Translations under genes and position numbers: made by a program
Source: a virus
Length of the DNA: 41,752 nt
Virus record (IMG/VR): IMGVR_UViG_3300037343_000029
Span: 1-41,752 of that record
Strand: one strand, 5' to 3'
Notes under the pieces: model-generated
Database searches by the model: none
What the model was told of the DNA's origin: nothing
What the model saw: only the letters and a program-made list of their open reading frames with translations
Shown: positions 6,120-41,499 of the stretch, piece by piece
How positions within the stretch are numbered: position 1 is the first letter of the stretch
How the letters are laid out: every line of letters begins with the position of its first letter

Positions 6120-6426
6120 GTTTATGCACTAACTCCAACAGGTCGGTTTCTAACATTACAATGTAGTCTTCCCCGTCTAAGTGCATACCAAAGACTGGGG
6201 TTCGCCCGTCTAGAATTGCCTCAGTTGTTATCTTCTTTAATTCTGCAGAAGATATTGTCTTGGACTTTTTTCCTGTCCACTTATGCTCAATCAGAAGGCT
6301 ATCTGACCTCACGTCTCCTTTGCGAGACCAAAAAGCTCCAGAAGCAGCCGTAGTAGAACCGCCGATAGCTTTTGCTATCCGCTTTTCATGTTTCTGAGAC
6401 TGCTTCTGTCCCTCTGATTTAGCTAT
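6109..6426 (-). CDS. Small PD-(D/E)XK (resolvase-like) nuclease, apparent AUA start
   Basis: The conserved core is GGSTTAASGAFWSRKGDVRSD followed by LLIEHKWTGKKS, a nuclease pattern (Asp in KGDV, Glu-x-Lys in IEHK) known from small phage resolvase-like proteins. A GTG at 6312 would start after the catalytic Asp and destroy the enzyme. The frame stays open upstream to 6456 but contains no ATG, GTG or TTG. An ATA at 6426 gives MAKSEGQKQ, sits 5 bases after a strong GGAGG, and overlaps the previous gene's stop (ATAGCTAA), so it is the best start; the protein is then 105 aa. Alternatives are a +1 frameshift from the upstream gene or a sequence error. Function is likely junction or nicked-DNA cleavage. 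Confidence 0.7.
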   Translation of the reverse strand: MAKSEGQKQSQKHEKRIAKAIGGSTTAASGAFWSRKGDVRSDSLLIEHKWTGKKSKTISSAELKKITTEAILDGRTPVFGMHLDGEDYIVMLETDLLELVHKLDI

Positions 6427-33794: not shown

Positions 33795-34466
33795 TCAGGG
33801 GGTAACGTATGGTTCCGTAATAGTTTGCGAGCCAAGCGACGAATAGTAGGGGGAAGTAGCACGACCACCAGCTCTTTCAGCTGTTGGAGGGTCAAGATGA
33901 ACACTTGTAACTTTGTAAAGCTGAGTGAACTCATCTACAGTAACTTCACTAGACACGCGAACAGTTACTGCGTTCATAAACAAACGCTTTCCTTGTTCTA
34001 TCATGTCCCGCTTAGTCAGGTCCAGCACGTCTAACCGACGGACTGTGTTGTCGTCCACTTCAAGGACGCCAAATCTCATTGGTAACTTTGTAGCCATAAG
34101 CTGTGCCATAATCTGGCGGTCATGGCGTGGGTGTCGAGCATACGAAGTTATCTGGTAGTCAATGTTGACTGGGATAGGAAGGTCTGCCTCTAAGGCGGTG
34201 TTATTGGGCGTATCTTGCCCCTCAAATAGGTAAGGATAGCGCTCAGAGCTAGTTTTACCGCGCATTTCTCTAGAGGTGTCTCTTATGACATCAACCATGT
34301 CAATGGTTACGTAAGGATAGGACTGGCTTCTAATTTCTTGGTCAGGCATGCCAAACCAAACTCCGACGTCTCTGGGGACATCTTCGCCACTTGCTTTCTG
34401 GTCACTAACTTGCATCCCAATAAGCTTTTCTCTTAGAGCCTTATCTTCACTTAGTAAGAAAGTCAA
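33795..34466 (-). CDS. Tail completion/terminator-like protein
   Basis: 223 residues. DVGVWFGMPDQEIRSQSYPYVTI, PVNIDYQITSYARHPRHDRQI, and a C-terminal TRVSSEV-like beta region occur in genes placed directly before the sheath in contractile phages. This location suggests a tail terminator that stops tube and sheath growth. It shares 4 bases with the upstream gene (ATGA). Family assignment is by context and pattern. Confidence 0.68.
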   Translation of the reverse strand: MTFLLSEDKALREKLIGMQVSDQKASGEDVPRDVGVWFGMPDQEIRSQSYPYVTIDMVDVIRDTSREMRGKTSSERYPYLFEGQDTPNNTALEADLPIPVNIDYQITSYARHPRHDRQIMAQLMATKLPMRFGVLEVDDNTVRRLDVLDLTKRDMIEQGKRLFMNAVTVRVSSEVTVDEFTQLYKVTSVHLDPPTAERAGGRATSPYYSSLGSQTITEPYVTP

Positions 34467-34774
34467 ATTAAGTCTCCTAGCTTCTCTTCTATACGGTCCA
34501 TGTAGGTAGACATCAAAGACGCCTCAGAGTTTAAGAACTTACGAATAGAGGCACTAGGCCTAATTGATTCAGAGCCAAACTCTAAAAGCTGTGCTTCAGC
34601 TACGTTAGGACCCTCGTATTTGACCGTGAATGACGAGCCATTGCGCACGATTTGGACGCTGTTAGCAGCATCTGCTGGCCAACCTGAGCTTATTAAATAG
34701 CTTCTAAGGTTTTCTGTAATAACAAAGGCAGCCTCTTCGCCAGCCTTAGTGAGTTCATCAAAAAAGTTTGCCAT
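34463..34774 (-). CDS. Neck or tail completion protein, 103 aa
   Basis: Begins MANFFDELTKAGEEAAFVI. A helix (about 1-30) is followed by a beta hairpin (VQIVRNGSSFTVKYEG) and LEFGSESIRPSASIRKFL, a pattern found in phage head-tail joining (HK97 gp10-like) proteins. It sits between neck-like and tail terminator-like genes. ATGA overlap with the downstream gene. Assignment is plausible but not certain. Confidence 0.65.
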   Translation of the reverse strand: MANFFDELTKAGEEAAFVITENLRSYLISSGWPADAANSVQIVRNGSSFTVKYEGPNVAEAQLLEFGSESIRPSASIRKFLNSEASLMSTYMDRIEEKLGDLI

Positions 34775-34973
34775 TAGGCCTGCCCTTATAAGATTCTGGC
34801 TGGACGAACTCTCGATTACGGTAACCCGCGGCTAAGCCCATGATGTAAGACTGAGGCTGTTTTGGACGATACGTAGTACTTGCTTGGTAAACTCCACGAA
34901 GGAAGTTTTCCTGGTCAGCATCGTTAAAATCAGCAACTCGTTCCCACCAAGGCTTTTCTTGAGAAGTACGCAT
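34758..34973 (-). CDS. Hypothetical protein, 71 aa
   Basis: Begins MRTSQEKPWWERVADFND after AAGGA with 7-base spacing. It contains YRPKQPQSYIMGLAAGYRNREFVQPESY, possibly a small helical bundle. No family recognised. A second frame (34832-35038) is a shadow that runs through the intergenic RNA element. It follows the cloverleaf RNA, so its expression may be controlled by that element. Confidence 0.75.
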   Translation of the reverse strand: MRTSQEKPWWERVADFNDADQENFLRGVYQASTTYRPKQPQSYIMGLAAGYRNREFVQPESYKGRPNGKLF

Positions 34974-34988
34974 AGCAGAATCCTTTTC

Positions 34989-35063
34989 AGGCGCAGGTCT
35001 AGCCGTAAGGCTAGGTAAGCACCCGCACGGATGCTCACCCTACAAGGATAGGGAAAAACGCCT
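34989..35063 (-). ncRNA. Cloverleaf-like structured RNA candidate in 5' UTR
   Basis: On the minus strand AGGCG (35063-35059) pairs with CGCCT (34993-34989) and encloses three hairpins: 35053-35049 with 35042-35038 (5 bp), 35038-35029 with 35024-35015 (10 bp, loop GTGC), and 35014-35009 with 35004-34999 (6 bp, loop TTAC). Two pairs of the second hairpin are G-U on the minus strand but would be A-C on the plus strand, which favours a minus-strand RNA. It is 75 nt but not a tRNA (no T-loop, wrong arm sizes). Confidence 0.55.
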
Positions 35064-35076
35064 AATAAATAAGGCT
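35054..35076 (-). terminator. Weak terminator-like hairpin after the HNH gene
   Basis: On the minus strand GCCT at 35075-35072 can pair with AGGC at 35063-35060, followed after one G by five T (35058-35054). The stem is only 4 bp with an 8-base AT loop, so termination would be weak. The AGGCG arm is the same one that closes the cloverleaf RNA, which makes the two structures mutually exclusive. Confidence 0.35.
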
Positions 35077-35437
35077 AAATGTATCTAGTAAGGCTGTCAT
35101 TATTTTGCCTACTCTTTAAAGAGTGGCAGTTGACACAAAGGGTCCTTAAATTAGAAATTTCATCATTATGGTGGTCTCCATCTATGTGGTCCACAGTTAG
35201 CTGGCAGTCATCTTCAATGGTAGCGGTGCACCGCATGTTTTCGCAGTAATCCTTTTTGTGAATTATGTATGGGCGCTCAGCTAGCGTCTTACCGACTTTA
35301 AACTGTCTATAGCAGCGGTAATGCTGCTTTTGATTAGGTTTTTGTTTGTAGGAAGTCTTTACACGAACATTATTGCCACAGACAGCGCAGTCTGCGAGCA
35401 GCTCATCTTCATTGATATTAGAAAGCGAATGTTTCAT
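35075..35437 (-). CDS. HNH endonuclease
   Basis: 120 residues. An N-terminal Zn pair (CAVC), a middle Cys/His-containing segment (YCENMRC), then LTVDHIDGDHHNDEISNLRTLCVNCH, the HNH motif with two Cys as Zn ligands. Such genes are common free-standing endonucleases in phages. It is the last gene before the cloverleaf RNA. No intron or intein is seen, so homing is possible but not shown. Confidence 0.85.
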   Translation of the reverse strand: MKHSLSNINEDELLADCAVCGNNVRVKTSYKQKPNQKQHYRCYRQFKVGKTLAERPYIIHKKDYCENMRCTATIEDDCQLTVDHIDGDHHNDEISNLRTLCVNCHSLKSRQNNDSLTRYI

Positions 35438-35453
35438 ACCACTTAGTTTAGTG

Positions 35454-35507
35454 TTATAAAGCTGTTTTTTTGCCGCATCTACAGTTGTTGCACTTGCACT
35501 CTGGCAT
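35454..35507 (-). CDS. Possible 17-residue Cys-rich microprotein
   Basis: ATG 35507 forms TAATG with the preceding gene's stop and opens MPECKCNNCRCGKKTAL. The C-x-C-x-x-C-x-C set is a compact metal-binding pattern. It would be the last member of a coupled relay. Very short length leaves doubt that it is expressed as a product. Confidence 0.45.
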   Translation of the reverse strand: MPECKCNNCRCGKKTAL

Positions 35508-35644
35508 TACTTTGTGCTCCTTGCTTTTCCTCTAGAGTTTTTCATGCGGTCAGAAAGCTTCTGATTTCGCTTCATCTGCTCTTCTTTTTTATAAGAAGGC
35601 TTCTTGGGGTCTAGTCCCTCAACCTTGCGTGCTGGTCTTGCCAT
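35507..35644 (-). CDS. Small basic protein, 45 aa
   Basis: ATG 35644 overlaps the preceding stop as TAATG. The protein MARPARKVEGLDPKKPSYKK continues to a Lys/Arg-rich C-terminus ending ARSTK; it is strongly basic with a central EEQMKRNQKLSDRMK helix. No family recognised. Its place in the coupled run of basic proteins supports it as a gene. Confidence 0.65.
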   Translation of the reverse strand: MARPARKVEGLDPKKPSYKKEEQMKRNQKLSDRMKNSRGKARSTK

Positions 35645-35943
35645 TACTTCTTACCTGCTCTTCTTTTGTTTTCCTTAGCGGTGTTGGCCCCATGTGCCAA
35701 AGGTCTTAAGTTACTTTTGCGGTCATCTGAGTGGTTATTGTTCTTGTGGTCTACGTCTACGTTTTTAGCCAGCTTGCGGCCAGCCTTAGTCTCATAGTCG
35801 TCACGAGCCTTATTCTTAGAAGTAGTCTCCCACCCGTCCTTAGTCTTAGTCTTAGTGACGTAGATTGGGCGGCCACCATTTTGTTTAGAGCCCTTGTACG
35901 GCCCAAACTTCTTCTTAGTACCTACTGGAATCTTTTCAGCCAT
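35644..35943 (-). CDS. Small HNH-like protein
   Basis: 99 residues. VDVDHKNNNHSDDRKSNLRP near residues 62-81 matches the core of HNH nucleases (DHxxxxxxDDRxSNLR) and is followed by a basic tail. The N-terminal half is basic and Gly-rich with no Zn Cys, so it is a Cys-less HNH type. The gene is coupled on both sides by TAATG. It may nick DNA or be a DNA-binding relic. Confidence 0.72.
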   Translation of the reverse strand: MAEKIPVGTKKKFGPYKGSKQNGGRPIYVTKTKTKDGWETTSKNKARDDYETKAGRKLAKNVDVDHKNNNHSDDRKSNLRPLAHGANTAKENKRRAGKK

Positions 35944-36188
35944 TACTTAGCCTTCCTGTGTCCCGCTGTCTTTTTAGCAATCTTCTTAGGCTGAGCTACG
36001 AATTGCTCACCTTTTTTATTTCCCGCAGCTTTAGCTCTATTGGTAGACTTCTTTTCCGCAGAGCTAAGGCTTTCCCAAGCTTTTTCAGGAAGATAGCGCT
36101 TTTTACCCTTAGAGGGTTTGCCATCCGAGGTTTTCCATTTTTCATCGCCCCAGTTCTTAAGGGACTTTTGAGACTTAGCTAAGGCCAT
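35943..36188 (-). CDS. DUF5872-like basic protein
   Basis: 81 residues, many Lys. The sequence pattern LAKSQKSLKNWGDEKWKTSDGKPS, then KKRYLPEKAWESLSSAEK and AKKTAGHRKAK, resembles the DUF5872 proteins found in many environmental phages and giant viruses. Function is unknown. It is coupled by TAATG to both neighbours, and the similar basic genes at 36188-36860 precede it. Confidence 0.72.
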   Translation of the reverse strand: MALAKSQKSLKNWGDEKWKTSDGKPSKGKKRYLPEKAWESLSSAEKKSTNRAKAAGNKKGEQFVAQPKKIAKKTAGHRKAK

Positions 36189-36385
36189 TAGTTCTTGTAA
36201 CCCCCGCCAGCTTTCTTGTACTCAGAAGCTAAAAGCTGTGCCTTACGAGCCGACCATTCGCCTGGGTCTCCACCCTTACTGCCAGCTTTAATGCGATTAA
36301 AGATAGTCTTCCTAAGCCCAGGCTTAGTGTAGTTACCTGCTTCGTTTACTTTTGACTTAGCCTTAGGCTTAGCTTTTTCAGCCAT
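36188..36385 (-). CDS. Small basic conserved phage protein
   Basis: 65 residues with 13 Lys and 3 Arg. KVNEAGNYTKPGLRK, FNRIKAGSKGGDPGEWSARKAQLL and a GGGYKN end follow a pattern I recall from many environmental phage proteins, sometimes next to or fused with DUF5872. Function unknown; basic nature suggests nucleic-acid contact. TAATG junctions at both ends. Confidence 0.72.
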   Translation of the reverse strand: MAEKAKPKAKSKVNEAGNYTKPGLRKTIFNRIKAGSKGGDPGEWSARKAQLLASEYKKAGGGYKN

Positions 36386-36696
36386 TATTTCTTCTTCTTT
36401 GCGTCAAGTCGCTTGGACATAGCAGCTGCTTTTTTCTTAGCGTCAGCTTTAGAGGAGGCCCCCCATGCCTGAAGAGACAGCAGTAGGCGAGTAGGGTCGC
36501 CGTTTGGCTTCTTCTCAGGGCCAGGATTACCGCCCATGCGAGCTAAAAACGAAGCACGACGAGGGTTGTCACCAGATTTAACAGGGGCTTTTAGATTAGA
36601 ACCAGGATTAGCTTTTTCATAAGACTTGCGGCCTTTTTCATTTAGACCACCCGACTTAGCTTTACCTTCTTTACGTTGCCATGCTTCGCTGGCCAT
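36385..36696 (-). CDS. DUF6321-like basic protein
   Basis: 103 residues. EAWQRKEGKAKSGGLNEKGR, YEKANPGSNLKAP and PRRASFLARMGG, with PTRLLLSLQAW, match the DUF6321 pattern (RKEGKNPxGGLNxKGR ... FCARMGG). Here the usual FCARM Cys is Leu (FLARM). A Lys/Ala-rich tail follows. Function unknown. Coupled to neighbours by TAATG. Confidence 0.75.
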   Translation of the reverse strand: MASEAWQRKEGKAKSGGLNEKGRKSYEKANPGSNLKAPVKSGDNPRRASFLARMGGNPGPEKKPNGDPTRLLLSLQAWGASSKADAKKKAAAMSKRLDAKKKK

Positions 36697-36860
36697 TACT
36701 TCTTCTTTGCCTTCATGGTGCCACTCTTTTTCATCTGAGCACCTTTTATGACGTCACCGCGAGTAATCTTGCCTTTGTCACTAGACATAGCCGCGAGCTT
36801 CTTCTCTTTCGGAGACATAGCCTTGCCATCAGAGGAGGCCATCTTCTTACCATGTACCAT
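36696..36860 (-). CDS. Small basic protein, 54 aa
   Basis: ATG 36860 begins MVHGKKMASSDGKAMSPKEK; the protein is rich in Lys and Met, and its stop overlaps the DUF6321-like ATG as TAATG. It is the first member of the seven-gene relay. A weak purine-rich site (AAAGAAAGAAG) precedes the start. No family recognised. Confidence 0.68.
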   Translation of the reverse strand: MVHGKKMASSDGKAMSPKEKKLAAMSSDKGKITRGDVIKGAQMKKSGTMKAKKK

Positions 36861-38022: not shown

Positions 38023-38196
38023 TTACCACTTTCCTATGGGGCAAGTTGCCTCGTGTATTTTTGTTTTAATACTCATAATGCACATGCACTCTTTGCATTG
38101 ACGAGTTGGTTTAAAGAACTTTTCACATCCTTTACAGATGTCATACCGTTCTTTAGGGTCTGTAATTATGGTTACAGAGACTTTATTATCTTCCAT
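38023..38196 (-). CDS. DUF6171-like zinc-ribbon microprotein
   Basis: 57 residues from ATG 38196 (TAATG with the fibre stop). YDICKGCEKFF, QCKECMCIMSIKTK and the terminal CPIGKW match the DUF6171 pattern (CxxCE ... CxxCxCxMxxK ... CPxGKW) known from many phages. Four to six Cys should bind Zn. Function unknown; it often lies next to structural genes. Confidence 0.8.
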   Translation of the reverse strand: MEDNKVSVTIITDPKERYDICKGCEKFFKPTRQCKECMCIMSIKTKIHEATCPIGKW

Positions 38197-39590
38197 TATT
38201 CCGCCCTAAAGTTGTCTACCGTGCTGCCCTGACGTTGAACTTGATTGCCGTTCTTAGCAATTCCTACCCCCCTAGTCCTTATAGAAGAACCAGAGTTATG
38301 GACTACTGAAGCTATTCTACTTCCACCTAAACCAGCAGCACTGTATAAAGCGACAGTAATGTTAGCCCCTGAAGTAGAGACCTCCATGCTACGAGGGTCT
38401 GAAGAAACGTCTTGAGTAAAAACCTGAGTGATAGTGCCACTTAGATTTCTAAAGATACGTATAACAGAAGGGTAAGAAGTACTAGCAGGATTAAATGTCG
38501 CACTCTGTGACTCTGAGAGCGTGCAAGTGGTTCCATTTCTAGTGCCTCCCTGAGGACAGTAGTATCCTCTTCCAGGATAAGAGCAGGTACTTCCATTCTG
38601 AGTGCTTCCGCTTGGGCAAGAGTATCCTGTTTGAGTCTGCCCCGTCTGAGTGGCAGGGTAAGAGCTGGTTGTCGTGCATGTACTTCCCGAACGAGTCCCT
38701 CCTTGCGGGCAGCTGTAGCTGGTGCTGGTGGTTTGAGTCGCAAAAAAGATGTCATCAGGGGGGCAATAAGTAGTAGTTCTAGTACACTCGTACACGACAG
38801 AGTTCGGCCCGCTGCCACTGAAAACGGGCCGACTAGAACCACCAGGGCAGCTTGAACTAGAGCTGTATGTCGTACTAGTACTAGTAGTACATGGTCTAGA
38901 CCTTCTGCACCTGTTAGTAGAGCTGGGCCCCGAGCTACCAGAAGGACAAGAGTAGCTAGTTGATGTGCTTGAAGTGGCAGGATAGCTAGAAGAAGTTACA
39001 CAGCTACTTCCACTTAGTGTGCCTCCGTTTGGACAAGAGTACGTGTAACTATATGTGGGGTTAGCACTGGTGGTGTAAGGGCCTTCATAGCTTGCTGGGT
39101 AGTTGGTTGTCCTATTGCAAGTTGTTCCATTGAGAGTAAACCCTGAAGGACAAGAATAAAAACTAGGGTTGTCCTGCTGCCTAGAACCTGGGATAGCAGC
39201 GTGCCAGTTATTGTTGTCTTGCACCCAGAAAGAAACACCAAGACCAGTGTTGCTAGGAGTATCTATAGTTACTTTATAGTCTGTACTAGCTTTATAGAGC
39301 TGTGTAAAGGCGATACCAGGACCTGCAGAGCCATCGTAAAAAGCTTGATTGTTTTGTATAGCCCAGTTACCTGAGAGCTCATTCCACTGGGAGAAGGTAT
39401 TGCTGGCAGTACCTAGGTTAGCGTCATTGGCTCTATTGAAGTTGTCTACGATTTCAGCAGAGTGCCAAATCTTCCATACACCATCTACTTTTGTATATCC
39501 GAGCGCGACTGGCTGCCAGTTACCGTTTACTTTTACGTAAGGGGCAACTACTGGTCGCTGAGAACCATCAACTTTTAAATAACCTGGCAC
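38196..39590 (-). CDS. Tail fibre/adhesin with Cys-rich CPxGG repeats
   Basis: 464 residues from GTG 39590 with GGAG 5 bases upstream. N-terminal repeats of (Y)xKVDGxWxPV type (about 1-47), then a LamG/concanavalin-like domain (about 50-140: DNFNRANDANLG, WNELSGNWAI, GLGVSFWVQDNNNW). From about 140 to 370 there are seven copies of a CP-x-G-x(n)-G-x-x-C unit such as CPSGFTLNGTTC, CPNGGTLSGSSC, CPQGGTRSGSTC. A beta-rich C-terminal domain follows (about 385-464). The disulphide-like repeats and lectin-like domain suggest host receptor binding on the virion surface. Confidence 0.82.
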   Translation of the reverse strand: MPGYLKVDGSQRPVVAPYVKVNGNWQPVALGYTKVDGVWKIWHSAEIVDNFNRANDANLGTASNTFSQWNELSGNWAIQNNQAFYDGSAGPGIAFTQLYKASTDYKVTIDTPSNTGLGVSFWVQDNNNWHAAIPGSRQQDNPSFYSCPSGFTLNGTTCNRTTNYPASYEGPYTTSANPTYSYTYSCPNGGTLSGSSCVTSSSYPATSSTSTSYSCPSGSSGPSSTNRCRRSRPCTTSTSTTYSSSSSCPGGSSRPVFSGSGPNSVVYECTRTTTYCPPDDIFFATQTTSTSYSCPQGGTRSGSTCTTTSSYPATQTGQTQTGYSCPSGSTQNGSTCSYPGRGYYCPQGGTRNGTTCTLSESQSATFNPASTSYPSVIRIFRNLSGTITQVFTQDVSSDPRSMEVSTSGANITVALYSAAGLGGSRIASVVHNSGSSIRTRGVGIAKNGNQVQRQGSTVDNFRAE

Positions 39591-40693: not shown

Positions 40694-40867
40694 TTATTTA
40701 TTGCGCTCTTCATCAGTTAGAGGCACACCGCTGCGGGTGTGCTGCCCTGGGCATCCCTGTCTAAAGCATGTAGGGGCTCCTGAAGTTCCATTTCGCTCTT
40801 TACGAATAGAGCCGCAGAACTTGCATTTGTCCCATTGCTCCTTAGGGAGCTGGCGATTAATTATCAA
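40694..40867 (-). CDS. Zinc-ribbon microprotein, 57 aa
   Basis: TTG 40867 overlaps the preceding stop (TTGA) and has AAGGA 6 bases upstream. The protein has CKFC (15-18) and C-FRQG-C (34-39), likely one Zn site, and ends VPLTDEERNK. No family name is recalled. The overlap and ribosome site support it as a real gene between two fibre-region genes. Confidence 0.7.
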   Translation of the reverse strand: MIINRQLPKEQWDKCKFCGSIRKERNGTSGAPTCFRQGCPGQHTRSGVPLTDEERNK

Positions 40868-41499
40868 TTTAGTTCCTTAACCCAGAGATGAATGTCTCCT
40901 ACTTGACCTAGAGTAACGTTTCCTGCGGCAGATGAACGCCCAAAGATTCTGTAGGTAACTGTTGTTCCAGAAGCTAGGCCGTGAGTATCAATGACGCTAA
41001 GAGTAAGGGCCTGAGAAGGGTCTACATAGTTCTCATATACATCGACAGAGGTAGAGCCGTCAAACCTAACAATCTTTACGTAGGAGTTATTGTTACCTGT
41101 ATTAATGGCGTACCCATTAAACGCAATCTCACATGCAGAAGAAGTCGTAGTAACTATTTGTGCTTCTAACGCAACAGCTCCTGAAGTAGTGAATTGAAGG
41201 TAAGCGCTACCCACAACAGTGTGAGTAGTTCCTGACTCATAAACATCGTACTCAGGTATTCCGTTATCCCAAGCGGTGTCGTAGTCAGTACCGCTGGCTT
41301 TTACGATAATTTGCCCAGCAGTTCCTCCAGTTGGGAACCCTGTTGGGCCAGTAGGTCCTAAAGGTCCTTCAGGTCCAGTCGGACCTAGGACTAGTGCTGT
41401 TTCTACAGTGTTCCATACAGCCCCTGTCCATACCCAAGTTCGGCTACCTGAAGTAAACTCCTCATCTAGTGCAGGAGAGTTAGGAAAATCTATAGCCAT
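40864..41499 (-). CDS. Tail fibre protein with collagen-like repeat
   Basis: 211 residues. N-terminal SGSRTWVWTGAVWNTV (about 17-32) is a fibre-anchor pattern; residues 39-53 are five Gly-Pro-x triplets, a short collagen-like stalk; then TAGQIIVKASGTDYDTAW, and a beta-rich head domain (about 80-211). Such proteins form trimers on tails. The gene overlaps the 57-aa Zn-ribbon start. Confidence 0.82.
   Translation of the reverse strand: MAIDFPNSPALDEEFTSGSRTWVWTGAVWNTVETALVLGPTGPEGPLGPTGPTGFPTGGTAGQIIVKASGTDYDTAWDNGIPEYDVYESGTTHTVVGSAYLQFTTSGAVALEAQIVTTTSSACEIAFNGYAINTGNNNSYVKIVRFDGSTSVDVYENYVDPSQALTLSVIDTHGLASGTTVTYRIFGRSSAAGNVTLGQVGDIHLWVKELN

Follow-up and report, generated by a model that had tools for sequence, protein, structure and literature searches.

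Probable promoter and structured 5′ leader at the start of the neck/tail operon of an uncultured contractile-tailed phage

The stretch of viral DNA analysed here (the window, 41,752 nt) carries all of its main genes on the minus strand, with gaps between genes being rare. The site under study lies in an intergenic gap of 101 nt (34974-35074), bounded upstream by a 120-aa HNH endonuclease gene (35075-35437, minus strand; PF01844, E 5.6e-6) and downstream by a 71-aa ORF (34758-34973, minus strand), hereafter p71; the sole other gap of comparable length is found at 6313-6418, which bears out the observation of the initial annotation that this genome has almost no gaps. On the far side of p71, the gene order continues with a 103-aa ORF, a 223-aa protein (p223; 33795-34466, minus strand), the tail sheath and the tail tube. 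Based on its similarity (36.9% identity) to a protein of Streptomyces phage GiJojo annotated as “tail terminator”, p223 is likely a tail terminator. The earlier placement of the site “before a neck gene” suits these following genes better than it does the adjoining p71, for which no Pfam or PHROG family match was found.

The minus strand of positions 34989-35063 can be folded into a 6-bp closing stem and three hairpins, with a minimum free energy of -36.2 kcal/mol; dinucleotide shuffles of the same strand (n=200) average -22.5 +/- 2.7 kcal/mol, corresponding to a z-score of -5.0, and none of the 200 folds as well. As the plus strand of the same 75 nt folds more weakly (-28.2 kcal/mol, z -2.5), the strand that carries the genes is also the better-folding one. 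The cloverleaf-like drawing from which the analysis started can thus be reproduced for the window itself, and the accompanying statement that the element is not a tRNA holds, since ARAGORN finds no tRNA or tmRNA gene in the window. At the gathering threshold, Rfam 15 gives no match in the window or in 15 relatives; in E-value mode on the element, it returns chance-level matches only and no riboswitch family.

Relatives were collected from IMG/VR contigs displaying the same gene order, with the sheath and p223 as anchors; one relative search reported >500 relatives, 80 of which were kept. These genomes share an architecture that usually begins with an intrinsic terminator, followed by TTTTC-TTT, a TANNNT box and six variable bases, and that continues with two hairpins, the long HP1 and the short HP2, ahead of a CUGCGCC-like stretch, a Shine-Dalgarno (SD) sequence and a start codon. 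The element holds the same locus, ahead of the neck/tail genes, in dozens of relatives. For comparison of individual positions, 38 distinct elements of group A were aligned by sequence only (alignment A3). In groups A and B, the -10 box formed part of the extraction rule, and its invariance there is thus not independent; group C (83 contigs, 49 distinct elements) was gathered by HP1 sequence alone, the box not being used. With a covariance model built from the element (R1), the window reaches 72.7 bits and every group-A relative has a hit at the equivalent position; members of groups B and C fall mostly below or near the limit of R1 and were identified by position and reading. The element is present in one copy per genome: R1 with filters off detects no credible second copy in the window, and on ten contigs of ~75-95 kb it marks a single locus in nine, the only second hit being weak, on the opposite strand and overlapping the first.

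In the window, HP1 (35015-35038, minus strand; loop C-GUGC-G) occupies the predicted 5′ end of the transcript and is followed on the same strand by HP2 (34999-35014; CTAG...CTAG), a conserved tail CCTGCGCC (34990-34997), and HP3 (34982-34991; CCT...AGG), a weak hairpin containing the SD site AAGGA (34981-34985), which is located 7 nt before the ATG. Among the 38 group-A elements, compensatory changes are seen at 10 of the 11 pairs of HP1 (88.6% of cells paired) and at 4 of the 5 pairs of HP2 (72% of cells paired); RNAalifold alone also predicts HP1. HP3 is paired in 86% of cells, with both-sided change at 2 of its 4 pairs; at its innermost variable pair, 22/38 elements have C-G or U-A and 16/38, the window among them, are unpaired, and the hairpin is hardly present in group B. 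Over the structure as a whole, the paired share of cells is 84.6%; shuffles give 73.2 +/- 0.9%, and sliding the partners brings the figure to 51% or less. Cells in which both sides have changed number 98, versus 39 +/- 4.6 in shuffles, and the covariation score of 0.418 compares with 0.230 in shuffles and at most 0.167 in the slid versions. The lowest well-kept pair of HP1 starts at the predicted +1; the next pair down forms in 15/38 elements only.

The single-stranded letters that are invariant in group A are the UGC of the HP1 loop and the TG of the tail, the CC of the tail being nearly so, and GGAT of the SD region is likewise invariant in the 38 relatives. Between clades, the HP1 loop varies (RUGC, GCUGC or GNAA). 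Group B, read directly, keeps HP1 and HP2 with changed letters, such as GCAG/CTGC versus GTAG/CTAC, and in the 83 contigs of group C, HP1 takes the form GACGCCGGAGNAAUCCGGAACCC with a GNAA tetraloop. A pseudoknot between the HP1 loop and the UGCG of the tail was rejected, as it displays no covariation and the loop changes in the GNAA clade with no change in its partner. In group A, the SD is paired with a mean probability of 0.67 and lies in a possible hairpin in most members. Single-sequence folds of other leaders from +1 are mostly unremarkable (z -0.5 to -2.5), and the case for a leader RNA therefore rests on covariation. Covariance searching of related contigs finds the pairing of HP1 and HP2 conserved and the gap element kept at its locus; because these hairpins covary and occupy the same position in dozens of relatives, there is strong support for the view that the 3′ part of the 75-nt fold is a conserved, structured leader RNA.

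The 5′ part behaves differently, and the cloverleaf with its four-way junction does not survive comparison. Exchanging the 3′ tails among genomes gives a closing stem (AGGCG/CGCCT) that pairs no worse than the native one; of the first hairpin (CCCTA/TAGGG), all 5 pairs form in 7/62 relatives only. Both were rejected as conserved features. The 5′ arms of these two helices are drawn from 25 nt that precede the predicted start and belong to a conserved, promoter-like region. There, in the window, AGGCG forms the 3′ arm of what resembles a degenerate terminator, AGCCTTATTTATTAGGCG-TTTTT (35054-35076, minus strand), and CCCTA overlaps the -10 box. The 75-nt “cloverleaf” is most likely promoter DNA followed by an mRNA leader, at the start of the tail-gene block. 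Among the roles put forward in the initial annotation, a structured leader RNA is retained; a riboswitch has no specific support and a packaging RNA none at all.

The promoter-like stretch is made up of an upstream element TTTAGC (35074-35079, minus strand; TTYASC in the nearest group), which overlaps the stop codon of the HNH gene, a -10 box TATCCT (35045-35050, minus strand) of the TANNNT type, and a predicted +1 at 35038 (minus strand), the first base of HP1, 7 nt after the last T of the box. The distance between box and HP1 is fixed: in group C, a TANNNT ends exactly 7 nt before HP1 in 45/49 distinct elements. The predicted +1 is a purine in 58/63 distinct relatives. In Mycobacterium tuberculosis, TANNNT precedes 73% of primary starts, 85% begin with a purine and no -35 motif is seen (PMC3898074). 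The site in the window resembles these promoters by its TANNNT box (centred 7-12 bp upstream), a predicted start ~7 nt downstream of it, a purine at that start and the lack of a canonical -35. It differs from them in that a conserved TT element precedes the box by 23 nt and in that the stretch overlaps the terminator of the upstream operon. This TT, at -29/-28 from the -10 box, is found in 34/45 relatives with a terminator and in 14/15 without a detected one; since it is kept where the terminator hairpin has been lost, it is not merely a part of the terminator. The 23-nt spacing is not that of a normal -35 (about 17); the TT element may be an activator site. On these grounds, the 5′ part looks like a promoter that would start transcription at the first base of HP1.

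The window site matches the bipartite pattern exactly, with chance matches to this pattern also being common. A promoter-pattern scan for further copies gave few hits, mostly in coding DNA, and one plausible second site: near position 1500 of L233 (the contig behind L048), a hairpin, a T-rich stretch and TTTATCCT lie upstream of a 92-aa ORF, possibly forming a promoter of the same type with no structured leader. A phage sigma factor acting at the promoter was rejected, since no Sigma70_r2 domain was found in 10 related genomes, the nearest finding being one sub-threshold Sigma70_r4. An alternative role of TATCCT as an anti-SD (AUCCUU with AAGGAU) was likewise discarded, as the box varies (TACTCT, TATTAT, TATCAT) with no matching change in the SD, and T1, A2 and T6 stay, in group C as well.

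In most relatives, a strong intrinsic terminator stands at the equivalent of 35054-35076; it is degenerate or absent in the relatives bearing an HNH gene, in all of which the element is intact from the box onward. An HNH-type gene ends just before the promoter in the window and in about ten relatives (L013, L032, L034, L035, L038, L041, L042, L049, L054 and L072), and TTYASC is located at or near its 3′ end. The gene was identified with a profile in the window and with tblastn in L013, and by reading the sequence in the remaining genomes. The HNH genes look like insertions or replacements at the terminator-promoter junction, a recurrent spot. Most relatives have no HNH gene at the locus, the element being more widely kept than the gene. 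In L085, the terminator and the tail genes are present and the leader is different and unrecognised (TTTTTATGCTGACACACAGCC...).

Downstream of the leader, a p71 profile matches 49/63 first ORFs of relatives. At least nine relatives lack p71; in these, after the leader comes either a mini-ORF (10-27 aa) or, directly, the next gene. Because the leader persists where p71 is replaced by a mini-ORF, it serves the operon and not p71. The genomes in which p71 is missing and a mini-ORF (e.g., MLLMPTQMVATV) follows the leader are L062, L073, L078, L095, L099, L106 and L107 (also L036, L053 and L059); some of these mini-ORFs overlap the start of the next gene, a possible leader peptide or case of translational coupling.

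The nearest cultured relatives, judged by the sheath and p223, are BRock-like Streptomyces phages (34-37% identity); the covariance model did not find the element in two stretches from such phages (L029 and L030). WhiB genes are present in 9/10 large related contigs and are treated as an actinophage marker in the literature (PMC10202952, PMC6802176), so that the host is probably an actinobacterium. A p223 profile gave no confirmed match in a bacterial genome collection.

The reading that we favour, with a probability of about 0.72, is that a contractile-tailed phage, whose hosts are probably actinobacteria, has the promoter and structured 5′ leader of its neck/tail operon at this site. A host-type RNA polymerase would start at a TANNNT promoter overlapping the end of the upstream operon's terminator, perhaps with an activator bound at the conserved TT around -40. 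The resulting mRNA would open with HP1 at its extreme 5′ end, followed by HP2, the CUGCGCC stretch and a small hairpin around the SD. Hairpins at the 5′ terminus are known to retard mRNA decay, and the leader would most likely shield the 5′ end of the long late mRNA and also set the rate at which translation of the first gene starts; mRNA stability and translation-start control are thus the favoured functions, with low certainty as to which. Folded from +1, the leader of the window is also predicted to have an alternative fold, ~1.5 kcal/mol more stable than the HP1 fold, in which the two arms of HP1 find other partners: GGAU of the SD region for the 5′ arm (AUCC) and the tail for the 3′ arm. 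This alternative dominates in only a few of the 38 genomes compared, and almost no covariation is seen in its tail helix, where 52% of cells are paired; it thus appears to be lineage-specific at most, and a conserved two-state switch was rejected as a general feature.

A broader alternative, which we consider doubtful, is that the transcript opens, from its first base, with an RNA regulator of the entire tail operon, which would be an antiterminator on actinobacterial RNA polymerase or an SD-hiding switch, expressed from a phage-specific bipartite promoter with an unusual 23-nt spacing. For antitermination, the model would be putL of phage HK022, which spans ~70 nt, forms two stem-loops and runs from the 5′ end just downstream of the promoter (PMC9378689). 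HK022 put RNA suppresses termination through RNA polymerase, at the beta′ zinc-binding domain. The present leader is similarly a short, two-stem-loop structure at the predicted 5′ end of a transcript leading into a long phage operon: HP1 and HP2 begin at the predicted +1, ahead of a very long block of genes on one strand, and cover ~40 nt, plus the SD hairpin (versus ~70 nt for put), and the leader serves this block rather than p71. It differs from putL in having no known sequence relation to it, in its variable loop and in preceding a tail rather than an early operon. A put-like RNA staying on the polymerase to allow read-through of terminators in the tail operon is nevertheless quite unlikely, as the HP1 loop differs among clades and no strong terminator stands out downstream on the coding strand of the window, leaving antitermination with no clear target there. 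A translational operator or riboswitch, in which a phage protein or metabolite would bind the HP1 loop and the CUGCGCC tail to free or hide the SD, finds some footing in the invariant UGC and TG of group A and in the alternative fold of the window, a possible two-state switch. The rarity of that fold among relatives, its nearly non-covarying tail helix and the lack of an Rfam riboswitch match all speak against it; autoregulation by p71 is unlikely as well, since the leader persists without p71, and such a reading as a whole is unlikely. In comparison, the T4 gene 43 operator (PMC3014915) also consists of an upstream hairpin with a conserved loop near the ribosome-binding site, but HP1 is at the predicted 5′ terminus, its loop is clade-variable and loss of the first gene leaves the leader in place.

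Two further possibilities involve the HNH gene. In T4 gene e and I-TevI, a late promoter lies close to or inside an inhibitory structure (PMC3014915), and by analogy read-through RNA from the HNH gene could form the full cloverleaf and be poorly translated, with RNA from the internal promoter, devoid of the 5′ arms, being well translated. As in these leaders, a phage promoter lies within a region that folds in longer transcripts, the window cloverleaf spanning both the predicted promoter and the leader, and L013, another HNH-bearing relative, can form a closing stem. Unlike in T4, the outer stem is not conserved, as the swapped-tail comparison indicates, and it ends before the SD, which would thus not be hidden; the first hairpin, too, is rarely complete. 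This timed leader is very improbable. More improbable still is that the RNA belongs to the HNH gene, as a guide-like RNA or a chance-folding homing target. The HNH ORF does end ~25 nt before the -10 box, and about ten relatives also have an HNH-type gene here, but the presence of the element without an adjoining HNH gene in most relatives refutes this as its main function and departs from the steady HNH association of HEARO/IscB omega RNAs.

No description of the element was found in the open-access literature that was searched. A promoter with a structured leader before a phage operon is a known kind of arrangement; the element itself is new, has no Rfam family and is widely distributed, with well over 100 database contigs carrying it. 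If the promoter-and-leader reading is right, this would be the first recognised operon start for these widespread uncultured phages, whose hosts are probably actinobacteria, and the timing of tail-gene expression would become testable. More generally, promoter DNA can make up half of what, in a single genome, passes for a convincing RNA fold.

Elsewhere in the window, a run of small Lys-rich and Cys-rich ORFs (e.g., MPECKCNNCRCGKKTAL) extends over 35438-36860, upstream of the tail operon, and is also seen in many relatives. Positions 38196-39590 encode a 464-aa Cys/Ser-rich repeat protein with SYSCPSG-like repeats, which is 83% identical to its counterpart in the near-identical contig L008, most neighbouring proteins being 93-100% identical; from these identities, it would be a fast-changing protein, perhaps involved in host recognition. 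Near the likely tail-fibre genes, a protein encoded at 40864-41499 contains a short collagen-like GPTGPEGPLGPTGPTG stretch.
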